Shown here: positions 37,077 through 40,230 of the stretch, one piece after another
Position numbering within the stretch: position 1 is the stretch's first letter
How the letters are laid out: every line of letters begins with the position of its first letter
DNA from: Rhodanobacter glycinis
GTDB lineage: Bacteria; Pseudomonadota; Gammaproteobacteria; Xanthomonadales; Rhodanobacteraceae
Direction of reading: 5' to 3'
Length of the DNA stretch: 64,000 nucleotides
Assembly (NCBI RefSeq): GCF_900114325.1
Contig: NZ_FOSR01000004.1
Coordinates: 221,550-285,549 of the forward strand
Program-made: the position numbers and the translations under genes
Notes under the pieces: generated by a model
The model's database searches: none
Seen by the model: only the letters and a program-made list of their open reading frames with translations
What the model was told of the DNA's origin: nothing

Positions 37077-38891
37077 TCACGCATTACACGTGAGCTGCGC
37101 ATCCTCCGGATCTTCCGGCAGCAAGTCAGCCCGCGTATCCACGGCCACCTGGTTGCGCCCCCCGTCCTTGGCGCGATAAAGCGCGGCATCGGCATCGATC
37201 AGCAAATCCCGCAAGCTGCGGCCAGAGTCCGCACTCCAGGCAACACCGAAACTGGCGGACACCGTGATGGTGATGCCGGCCTTCACCACCATCGGCTCCG
37301 CCGCCAATGCGCAGCGGATGCGCGAGGCGATCTCGACACCCTGTTCGCGCGAAGCCACCGGCATCAGGATGCCAAACTCCTCGCCACCCAAGCGCCCGAA
37401 CATGTCCGACTTGCGCAACTCCCGCAGGCATACCGCCACGGTCTGTCGCAGGACCACGTCACCGGCCACGTGTCCGTAGCTGTCATTGACCCGCTTGAAG
37501 TGGTCGAGATCCAGTATCACCAGACAGGCTCCCGCCTTCGCCCGGTGCAACCGTCGCAACGCGTGTCCCGCCTCTTCGAAAAAGTGTTCCCGGTTGAACA
37601 CACCGGTCAGCCCGTCATACCGGGCCATCTTGCGGAAACGCAACTGGGAACGCCGCAGCCAGAACATCGCCATCGCGATGAAAGCAATCACCACCAACAA
37701 CAACGCGATATACAGTCGACTGGCCTTTTGCGACTGAACCGCCAGCGCATGGCGCAATTGAAGAATCCGGTTCTGCTTGTCCAGCGCATCCAGCTTCAGC
37801 TTCTTGGACTGCACTTGCTGCTTGACCATCTGGTAGGCCAGTGCGCGCGCCTTGGCATGATCCACGGCAGCCTTGTCCAGCGCCACATACTTCTCGTAAT
37901 AGGCCAGCGCGGCGGCAGCATGACCACTCATCTTTTCCGCCTTGTAGAGAACTTCATAGGCAGCCTGCAGTATCCACAACGTGCTGTTCGCACCGCTCAT
38001 GGCAGTGGTGGTCAACGCGAATTTCCGCGCATTGGCGGCATCGCCGAGGCTCAGATACGCCTGCGCCAGCGTGACCTGCAACGAGGCAAGATACGGCGGA
38101 TAGCGGTTCTTCCGGATCGCCGGGGCAATGCGATGCAAGAAGGCAATCGCCCGCTTCGCACGGCCCTCGTCGATCATGGCGCTGGCCTGGTTCAGGCGCA
38201 GCGCGTCGGCGCTCAACGGATGCTTGGCGGCAAGGCACGTATCGATCGCCTGCCGAAACCTCGGATTGGTCGAAAGAAGTTTGCCCTCATACAGCAGCGA
38301 GTTCGTCTCCCCCATCTCGGCGATGCACTGTGCTGCCGCCGAAGGAAGCGTGGCCTTCATCTCCCGGGCATATTGCAGCGCCAGCTCATATTGCCCCACC
38401 GCCGCGCCGTTCAACATGATGATGACCCGATCCATGCCCTCCAGCCGTGCCGTCGGATCGGCAACCTTGGGCAGCTCGGCCATCAAGGTGTTGGCCAGCG
38501 TATAAGCGTCCACATAGTGATGACTGTTGAATTTGTTCTGGACCAGTCTCGCCATGGCACGAATCGACAGCGCCTGGTCGCCGGAATGAGCGACGATGTC
38601 GTACAGCAAGGGATCCGCCTTGCCGTAGTTGCCATCAAACGAAAGCTGCTGCGCGTCCAGCAGTCGCAGGTGCCACCGTTGCGCGACGCTCAGGCTGGCG
38701 CTGCGCTCGTGAAGCTGCACCAGGATGCTTCGATAGCGGTCCTGATCGTTCGACTTGGCACCTTCGGCCCGAGCCAGCAACACCGCAACCGATGGCGCTG
38801 CAATCGCCGGAGCAGCCGAGTGCGCACGCACATTCGGCGCAACAGTGGCCAGGATCATTCCGGCCAGGCAAATCAGCGTGCCGTGCTCCAT
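37077..38891 (-). CDS. Diguanylate cyclase with periplasmic TPR-like sensor
   Basis: The product has 604 residues: an N-terminal signal-like helix (MEHGTLICLAGMILAT), a helical-repeat periplasmic region to about 385 (TPR-like, e.g. ALAYYEKYVALDKAAVDHAKARA), one transmembrane helix (393-413), a linker, and a GGDEF domain (about 425-590). The active-site motif is GGEEF at 502-506, and RKSD at 493-496 is the inhibitory I-site at the right spacing. It should make cyclic-di-GMP and be subject to product inhibition. The gene begins 20 bases after the small candidate precursor gene, so it is probably co-transcribed with it. Confidence 0.9.
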   Translation of the reverse strand: MEHGTLICLAGMILATVAPNVRAHSAAPAIAAPSVAVLLARAEGAKSNDQDRYRSILVQLHERSASLSVAQRWHLRLLDAQQLSFDGNYGKADPLLYDIVAHSGDQALSIRAMARLVQNKFNSHHYVDAYTLANTLMAELPKVADPTARLEGMDRVIIMLNGAAVGQYELALQYAREMKATLPSAAAQCIAEMGETNSLLYEGKLLSTNPRFRQAIDTCLAAKHPLSADALRLNQASAMIDEGRAKRAIAFLHRIAPAIRKNRYPPYLASLQVTLAQAYLSLGDAANARKFALTTTAMSGANSTLWILQAAYEVLYKAEKMSGHAAAALAYYEKYVALDKAAVDHAKARALAYQMVKQQVQSKKLKLDALDKQNRILQLRHALAVQSQKASRLYIALLLVVIAFIAMAMFWLRRSQLRFRKMARYDGLTGVFNREHFFEEAGHALRRLHRAKAGACLVILDLDHFKRVNDSYGHVAGDVVLRQTVAVCLRELRKSDMFGRLGGEEFGILMPVASREQGVEIASRIRCALAAEPMVVKAGITITVSASFGVAWSADSGRSLRDLLIDADAALYRAKDGGRNQVAVDTRADLLPEDPEDAQLTCNA

Positions 38892-38911: not shown

Positions 38912-39202
38912 CTAACGCGCCGGGTTATCCGGAGTATCCATTTCGTCGCCGTCCTGATCCGGCACGTTTTCCGCATCGTCATCGCCGGGGTCACAACCAC
39001 CGTCGTGGCCGTTGTGATTGACCACGTTGTTCTTGTTGCCGAGCTCCTGCGCCAGGTAACTCCTGTCGCCCGTGGCCGCCGCCAACTTGAGGTTATCGAC
39101 GGCACCCATCTCGTCCAATGCCCGGGACAGGCTTTCCGGGGAAGCTCGGCGCAGCGAAGCATTCCGCCCGATGCTTTCCAGCAGTTCGATCGTGTTGGAC
39201 AT
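38912..39202 (-). CDS. Small acidic-tailed protein, candidate split-borosin precursor
   Basis: The product has 96 residues. Residues 1-55 are amphipathic and helical (MSNTIELLESIGRNASLRRA, then SYLAQELG), like a leader or methylase-binding domain. Residues 56-96 form an Asn/Asp/Gly/Pro-rich tail with 12 acidic residues and one Cys (70). The ATG at 39202 has AGGGGA eight bases upstream. It lies between the borosin-like methylase and the GGDEF gene on the same strand. Split borosin systems encode a methylase and a separate precursor with a helical binding domain plus a C-terminal core, and the layout fits. The tail also contains DQDGDEMDTPDN, resembling a thrombospondin type-3 calcium-binding repeat, so a calcium-binding protein is an alternative. 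The function is inferred. Confidence 0.55.
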   Translation of the reverse strand: MSNTIELLESIGRNASLRRASPESLSRALDEMGAVDNLKLAAATGDRSYLAQELGNKNNVVNHNGHDGGCDPGDDDAENVPDQDGDEMDTPDNPAR

Positions 39203-39396
39203 GTTTTCCCCTGTTTCCTTGCGGATGAGTTGCTCACCCAGCCGGGGAGGACGGTGCCTTGCCCGGATGAATGACACCACTTGCCAGCGGGCGCATCCTC
39301 CGTGCCTTCATCACATCGGCGCCCCCAACGCCAATCCGCAGCCTAGCACTCCTCGCGAACGGGTGCGCGTCATGCACGGAGGCCATGGACCGGGAT

Positions 39397-40230
39397 TCAA
39401 GGCATCATCAGCGCCCGGTCCAATGCCGCCAATCGCCGCCTTGCCGAGGCATTGACGCGTAATGGCGACGCCGGCGACAAGACCACGGTTTCATCGGCAC
39501 CGACGTCCGTGGCTGGCAGATCTCGCAAGAGCACACGGCGAATGCGCGGCTGCTCGATCGGCAAAGTCGCGCCGCGATAAATGATCAGCTCGTGGTCCAG
39601 CGGATAATCCTGACTCAGTACATCCACCAGCACCTGGCGATATTCGGGACCGGTGGCAAAGCGTTTCATCGAACGGTCGCCGACCAGGCCGACCTGCCAC
39701 AGCACCAGACAGGCGCCGGTATTGATCGGAGTTTCGTAGAACAACAGTTGGCTGGCTTCGTAGTGCTGGCAACCGTAGCGGCCGGGATCGATACCCAAGT
39801 CGGCATACAGGCAATCCTCGGCAGAGATGCCAGGCTCCATATGCGCATGGAAACCTTCCGCACGCGCCACCTTGATCACTTCGTGCGGCGACCACGCGAA
39901 GATACCGGGATGGCCATAGAACACCGCGCAGACTTTCTTGCCGGCGCGCACCTCGGCCATCATCACCTCGACCCACTCGCGGTAGGTGATCGCCCGGGAT
40001 TTGTCGCCCTTGCCGTAATAAGGCTGCAGGCTGCGCACGTCCGGATGCATCTGTTCCAGCCACAGCTCGACGATGGCGTCGGAAAGCGCGGCGAAAACCA
40101 CATCGGACTGCTCGATGTGGCTGCGCGCCAATGGCGAGAGATGCGAGCCCAGGGTCATGCCCAAGCCCACGCAGGCGATGCAGCCGCGCTGTTCGGAAAT
40201 GGCAGGGGGCGGCATCGACAAGGCGCTCAT
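39397..40230 (-). CDS. TP-methylase of the borosin alpha-N-methyltransferase type (SonM/OphMA-like)
   Basis: The product has 277 residues of the tetrapyrrole (corrin/porphyrin) methylase fold that binds S-adenosylmethionine: CVGLGMTLG near the N-terminus, YGHPGIFAWSPHEVI (105-119) and EPGISAEDCLYADLGIDP (132-149). YYGKG at 71-75, Arg79 and Tyr83 correspond by spacing (R-x3-Y) to residues I remember as catalytic in OphMA. The GISAEDC and YEASQLLF stretches match the backbone N-methyltransferases of borosins, including bacterial SonM, more closely than cobalamin-pathway enzymes. I chose ATG 40230; ATG 40215 is possible. No cob genes are nearby. It is 194 bases upstream of the candidate precursor. 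Comparison is from memory. Confidence 0.8.
   Translation of the reverse strand: MSALSMPPPAISEQRGCIACVGLGMTLGSHLSPLARSHIEQSDVVFAALSDAIVELWLEQMHPDVRSLQPYYGKGDKSRAITYREWVEVMMAEVRAGKKVCAVFYGHPGIFAWSPHEVIKVARAEGFHAHMEPGISAEDCLYADLGIDPGRYGCQHYEASQLLFYETPINTGACLVLWQVGLVGDRSMKRFATGPEYRQVLVDVLSQDYPLDHELIIYRGATLPIEQPRIRRVLLRDLPATDVGADETVVLSPASPLRVNASARRRLAALDRALMMP

Follow-up and report, generated by a model that had tools for sequence, protein, structure and literature searches.

A split-borosin methylase and precursor beside a TPR-GGDEF gene in Rhodanobacter glycinis: a probable peptide-signal module coupled to c-di-GMP

The window, the whole 64,000-nucleotide stretch of Rhodanobacter glycinis contig NZ_FOSR01000004.1 that was analysed, carries on its minus strand a row of three genes for a methylase (39397-40230), a 96-aa protein (38912-39202) and a 604-aa protein (37077-38891). 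The methylase and the precursor gene are separated by 194 bases, and the third gene begins 20 bases past the precursor stop codon. The first-pass annotation had placed two ORFs of 277 aa and 96 aa here, and both lie where it put them on the minus strand. The interval it drew, 38912..40230, enclosed a real methylase/precursor pair, but the gene at 37077-38891 on the minus strand was left outside and overlooked; this GGDEF gene is a more telling partner than those named there. The row has the following features.

39397..40230, minus strand: borosin-type peptide backbone (alpha) N-methyltransferase, 277 aa (P0001), assigned from the PDB match to SonM, Pfam TP_methylase, the catalytic residues and dN/dS
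38912..39202, minus strand: split-borosin precursor, 96 aa (P0002), with a borosin binding domain and a C-terminal tail, assigned from the profile match to SonA, the AF2 model and co-occurrence
39038..39202, minus strand: leader or borosin binding domain of the precursor, residues 1-55, from AF2 helices and the gapless SonA alignment
38993..39028, minus strand: putative core, residues 59-70, polar, from its register with the hydrophobic core of relatives and the polar-clade motif
38915..38992, minus strand: acidic tail, residues 71-96, predicted to be disordered, a tail trait of sensor-abutting precursors
37077..38891, minus strand: TPR-like sensor with membrane helix and GGDEF diguanylate cyclase, 604 aa (P0003), predicted from Pfam GGDEF, the AF2 model and co-occurrence
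37737..38804, minus strand: helical-repeat (TPR-like) sensor domain, residues 30-385, probably periplasmic, from AF2 helices and invariant cysteines
37644..37733, minus strand: predicted membrane segment, residues 387-416, from a hydropathy window within the long helix 325-424
37140..37631, minus strand: GGDEF domain, residues 421-584, with GGEEF and an RxxD five residues ahead, from Pfam, the motif and Foldseek

Domain scans of four neighbouring genes revealed a Na/H exchanger 135 bases upstream of the methylase, a Mg_chelatase ATPase, which we take to be of the ComM type, farther out on the same side, and isocitrate lyase and malate synthase on the opposite flank of the three-gene row. Thus no cobalamin or siroheme gene is among these four, and the earlier statement that none lies nearby holds for the genes scanned. 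The source genome has a single methylase, a single precursor and a single match to the sensor domain. A search upstream for a c-di-GMP riboswitch or another RNA gave three sub-threshold matches, none of them credible; the promoter scan returned zero promoter-like sites, and the terminator scan two terminator-like sites against 3.1 expected.

The 277-aa protein is, judged by its sequence, a borosin-type backbone N-methyltransferase. All 25 PDB matches at E<=1e-3 were borosin methylases, with SonM on top (E 1.1e-68) and the fungal OphMA group at E 5e-45 to 3e-41, while Pfam returned the general TP_methylase family alone (E 2.9e-18). The motifs YGHPG and GISAEDCLYADL, pointed out in the first-pass annotation, are present, and the R-x3-Y pair that it took as a borosin signature, Arg79 and Tyr83, aligned to Arg67 and Tyr71 of SonM. 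Tyr72 of the window methylase aligned to Tyr58 of SonM, which together with Arg67 and Tyr71 is reported as catalytic in the consulted part of the SonM study (PMC8429565). This Tyr/Arg/Tyr set was kept in 52 of 52 methylase rows with a hydrophobic core and in 26 of 26 rows of a polar-core clade that reach the positions, one further row being truncated. Comparison to three relatives gave dN/dS ratios of 0.10, 0.11 and 0.20 at dS of 0.7-0.9, the synonymous distances in the dN/dS analyses (0.7-1.5) being near saturation. A grouping with corrinoid or siroheme enzymes, suggested beforehand as a check, was not found: 25 of 25 PDB matches were borosin enzymes, and the NCBIfam models for a corrinoid or siroheme identity stayed below their cut-offs, the best with 26.1 bits against cut-offs of 160-525 (525 for that model).

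The 96-aa precursor as a single sequence had zero matches in Pfam, NCBIfam and the PDB, and a profile from 16 close relatives did not reach SonA in the PDB. A profile of 71 relatives (A2), run against 177,635 PDB sequences, had SonA for its seven best matches (E 4.2e-4 to 6.5e-4), with the first non-SonA match at E 0.066, and aligned residues 6-55 without a gap to residues 6-55 of SonA. The AF2 model, with a mean pLDDT of 67.9, contains helices at 2-13, 15-18, 22-31, 36-44 and 47-54 followed by a disordered tail, in agreement with the earlier description as a helical-plus-tail protein; the SonA leader is likewise described as five helices in the part of PMC8429565 consulted. Foldseek with this model found nothing at E<=0.001, and SonA held ranks 2 and 4 of 10 with an E of 3.7. 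In the precursor family the leader is conserved and the tail variable. On the profile evidence, the 96-aa protein is assigned to the split-borosin precursor family related to SonA. The first-pass annotation had regarded the tail as the core. This stands for a putative core within the tail, residues 59-70, where the window reads VVNHNG in register with the VVCGVH core of relatives; the acidic remainder is instead a trait of precursors abutting a sensor gene. Its remark that the tail is unlike the hydrophobic fungal cores fits the polar core of the window precursor and of its clade-mates. Among 133 precursors, 102 have a sensor gene no more than 200 bases away, with a median gap of 12.5 bases, and their tails have a median of 41 residues, 11 of them acidic, versus 19 residues and 2 acidic ones for the remaining 31; two arrays supply 16 of these 31 uncoupled precursors, and p-values of this comparison are therefore overstated. 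The window precursor falls in the long acidic, sensor-abutting class. Tails rich in histidine and aspartate, e.g., DDHHHHHHDDD, occur at L062:3833-4162, L155:7470-7835 and L035:5451-5750 and look metal-binding.

The 604-aa protein matched the Pfam GGDEF model with an E of 8.8e-40, and the TPR models of Pfam came in under the cut-off (E 0.16 and 0.22). In the AF2 model (pLDDT 88.8), 15 successive helices of antiparallel type at 35-321 are followed by a single helix at 325-424. Foldseek with the sensor model gave GGDEF structures in all 50 of the matches listed, solved GGDEF domains included. The motif GGEEF is intact and the RxxD product-inhibition site is present, and the protein is predicted to make c-di-GMP. 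In 78 full-length sensors GG[DE]EF was found in all 78, RxxD in 73 and a membrane segment ahead of the domain in 77. The N-terminus of P0003 appears signal-like by eye, while the hydropathy scan flagged none there and one membrane segment at 387-416. From the signal-like N-terminus and the one membrane segment, the TPR-like domain is probably periplasmic, a location favoured also by two cysteines of the sensor domain, Cys189 and Cys219, that are invariant in 64 of 64 sequences.

The association of these genes was followed in a set of loci from named genomes, the best 80 of 87 obtained with a single-sequence methylase query. An iterated precursor profile over the 7216 ORFs of these loci identified 95 precursors in 77 of the 80, all 95 on the methylase strand; the three loci without one (L034, L059 and L102) have the methylase at the edge of the contig, at most about 120 bases from where it ends. 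The absence of the small protein next to close homologues, which had been named as a sign against the pairing, was therefore not observed apart from these contig ends. The methylase/precursor pairing is beyond chance. A TPR-GGDEF gene accompanied methylase and precursor in 76 of these 77 loci from the best 80 of 87, the contig ending inside the sensor gene in L037 and L053. The sole locus with the pair and without TPR-GGDEF, L063:6001-7237 of Dyella kyungheensis, has a precursor with a short tail. In 233 genomes of the family, counted from the listed rows, the methylase was present in 162, the precursor in 163 and both in 161; G031 had the methylase alone, G038 and G081 the precursor alone. 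The sensor query (residues 1-373) matched in 158 of the 233, namely in 157 of the 162 methylase-bearing genomes versus one of the 71 without methylase (an 86% complete genome), where sensor and precursor counts denote presence per genome, with the position not checked in every one. In the remaining five methylase genomes the methylase stands at the C-terminal end of a longer polypeptide, whose order, read by eye, is helical repeats, membrane segment, GG[DE]EF and methylase. These fusions (L130-L135) comprise six ORFs in the five genomes with frames of 829-893 residues.

Extra precursors often come with a TPR-GGDEF gene of their own (L055, L065, L085, L090, L091 and L095). In 18 further loci, hand-picked and some of them chosen since a listed methylase seemed absent, the precursor adjoins a TPR-GGDEF gene in 18 of 18, the contig of L143 ending ahead of the GGDEF part. 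Four of these loci (L138, L139, L147 and L150) have precursor and TPR-GGDEF with no methylase in the stretch examined; a methylase elsewhere in the genome may serve these precursors. Between methylase and TPR-GGDEF, arrays of 11 precursors (L153:12590-16180) and 7 precursors (L154:7463-10082) were observed, with short tails, e.g., MYAPQAVQTFLASDPD, in all except the sensor-proximal precursor. Among the listed recurring ORF clusters, many of them shadow ORFs, neither a protease nor an exporter recurred in the cassette that would account for peptide release and export. At the level of the genes, the evidence that the pair is functionally linked with the sensor is strong.

The cores fall into two kinds. 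With a hydropathy cut-off of 1.5, chosen after the values were seen, a hydrophobic stretch (VVCGVH and similar) about four residues past the leader is present in 66 of 96 precursors, and the other 30 are polar. A tree built from 91 methylases groups the polar rows as a single clade (100/100), with the hydrophobic rows on the other side; the window methylase lies in the polar clade, closest to that of Dyella lutea among the named methylases. SonM branches outside the 84 cassette methylases, in a tree that carries a long-branch warning. The polar tails have a loose motif in common, roughly [VPA][PN][QH]x[TSH][QH]x[PG]G[HC][ED]. At the position of SonM Met74, which is Trp86 in the window methylase, all 52 hydrophobic-core rows have Met and 26 of the 27 polar rows have Trp; this Trp86 lies three residues past the catalytic Tyr83 and may influence the form of the core channel. 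Of the 52 hydrophobic-core loci, 44 have a gene for a GNAT acetyltransferase (Pfam Acetyltransf_3, E 6.9e-17), and of the 25 polar ones none has it. It adjoins the methylase, e.g., at L091:6740-7348, and possibly performs a second tailoring step in the hydrophobic-core loci. The polar core would represent a substrate type that is not described in the consulted parts of the borosin texts.

Leader distances were compared to those of the partner proteins by partial rank correlations over 75 pairs, each partner controlled for the other two, with 300 permutations. The leader correlated with the sensor domain given the methylase and GGDEF distances (r 0.29, 0 of 300 permutations as high) and with the methylase (r 0.25, 0 of 300), and the value for GGDEF was 0.10 (16 of 300). 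Within the polar set the partial coefficients were 0.24 for the sensor domain, 0.51 for the methylase and -0.03 for GGDEF, within the hydrophobic set 0.38, 0.35 and -0.05; related sequences are not independent, which makes these correlations weaker as proof.

Split borosins are an accepted RiPP class, and according to the consulted part of PMC8429565 no type IV split borosin pathway is yet tied to a final natural product. The locus shares with this class an enzyme homologous to SonM and OphMA, the catalytic residues, a separate adjoining precursor gene and a five-helix leader; a hydrophobic core directly after the leader as in SonA, a usual and perhaps not defining trait, has no match. The original reading as a split borosin gains support from the SonM homology, the SonA-like leader and the pairing in 77 of the best 80 of 87 loci. 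One of the closest described systems is SonM-SonA of Shewanella oneidensis (type IV; PDB 7LTC and others), which according to the part of PMC8429565 consulted has separate methylase and precursor genes as well. Its methylase is homologous with equal Tyr/Arg/Tyr and its five-helix leader is homologous in gapless register, whereas the window has a polar core, a long acidic tail after it and a TPR-GGDEF gene next. The fungal OphMA and dbOphMA have a homologous methyltransferase domain, matched at E 5e-45 to 8e-43, but unite methylase, leader and a hydrophobic core in one chain. A GGDEF element appears in the Figure 1 legend on borosin types 0-XI of PMC11395268; in the consulted part of this text its type is unspecified and TPR sensors and polar cores are unmentioned. 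The element may be the fusion type of L130-L135, and since a GGDEF label already stands in a borosin type of that legend, the GGDEF link itself is not claimed here as a discovery.

A search through 369 genomes of the class yielded 9 matches, the best at 50%, with SonM itself not among them. Seven distant gammaproteobacterial methylases were found with SonM, two of them with an adjoining TPR signalling gene: L121 has the methylase, a 67-aa SonA-like protein and a TPR hybrid histidine kinase, and L122 a SonA-like protein, a TPR hybrid histidine kinase, the methylase and a TPR-GGDEF. As the SonA-like precursors adjoin TPR hybrid histidine kinases there, the output domain of the sensor varies, and with just two of the seven having such a gene the sensor link is a trait of this branch, not of all borosins. 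An MFS-like transporter, recognized by eye, follows two other distant methylases (L124 and L125), and the other three of the seven had neither. Gram-positive peptide signalling uses TPR receptors of the RRNPP/Rgg group, cytoplasmic transcription regulators encoded beside the peptide gene, some of which act with RiPPs. The three-gene row resembles them, by analogy, in a putative helical-repeat receptor encoded next to its peptide gene; the partner in the window, unlike these cytoplasmic regulators, is a membrane diguanylate cyclase.

We consider it probable that this split borosin is coupled to c-di-GMP signalling as a peptide-signal/c-di-GMP module. From the computed enzyme family, catalytic residues, precursor family, gene order, co-occurrence, fusions and cyclase motif we infer a possible course of events. 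The methyltransferase would bind the 96-aa precursor in the cytoplasm by way of the five-helix leader and, with SAM as the methyl donor, methylate backbone amides immediately past helix 5, around residues 59-70. Either the modified precursor itself or a peptide cleaved from it would then act as ligand or regulator of the sensor, whose gene begins 20 bases downstream; the TPR-like, probably periplasmic domain of this sensor would drive the cytoplasmic GGDEF domain to form c-di-GMP. A rise in c-di-GMP could shift behaviours such as attachment or motility. More specifically, and tentatively, we propose a RiPP-to-second-messenger circuit in which a backbone N-methylated polar-core peptide would serve a membrane diguanylate cyclase as its dedicated signal, and in which precursor and sensor would evolve as a matched pair, sometimes with several pairs per methylase and sometimes with methylase and cyclase in one chain.

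Other readings of the locus share part of this evidence. The uncut, methylated 96-aa protein might act with leader and acidic tail together as a regulator of cyclase or methylase in the cytoplasm, methylation being the switch. The lack of a recurring protease or exporter among the listed ORF clusters, the tie of long acidic tails to sensor-abutting precursors and the union of methylase and cyclase in one chain of five genomes, on the presumed cytoplasmic side, are consistent with such an intracellular role. We regard it as unlikely, as the leader distances track the TPR domain, probably outside the membrane, rather than GGDEF, and as the tandem arrays of short precursors resemble peptide diversification. 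Variable tails and arrays would fit the diversification of a product as well, and an ordinary secreted borosin natural product, merely beside or regulated by a diguanylate cyclase, would accord with the standing of split borosins as a RiPP class in the consulted part of PMC8429565. The association with the sensor, in 76 of 77 loci among the best 80 of 87, with own sensors for extra precursors and with fusions, is too tight and too often repeated for chance, and a transporter or peptidase recurs nowhere among the listed ORF clusters; such a product appears rather improbable.

A decay of the core would explain why the polar clade has neither a hydrophobic core nor the GNAT gene (0 of 25 versus 44 of 52 loci): the methylated core would have been lost, the precursor would serve as an adaptor of enzyme and sensor, and the methylase would act elsewhere or not at all. 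The catalytic residues are kept and the methylase is strongly constrained, however, and the replaced core has a clade-wide motif of its own that is repeated in arrays, which makes the decay very improbable. A methyltransferase of the corrinoid or siroheme kind, with no relation to peptides, has in its favour the TP_methylase fold family held in common; against 25 of 25 PDB matches to borosin enzymes, models far below cut-off and a SonA-like partner its probability is negligible.

For the preferred reading, a borosin peptide signal coupled to c-di-GMP, a partner gene in 76 of 77 pairs (best 80 of 87 loci) and fusions in five genomes make borosin function directly testable. The extent to which the methylase tolerates charged and amide side chains could be tested on the polar-core clade, a natural experiment. 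If true, the RiPP-to-c-di-GMP circuit would be the first biological role for split borosins and, by analogy only, a Gram-negative counterpart of peptide signalling through TPR receptors.
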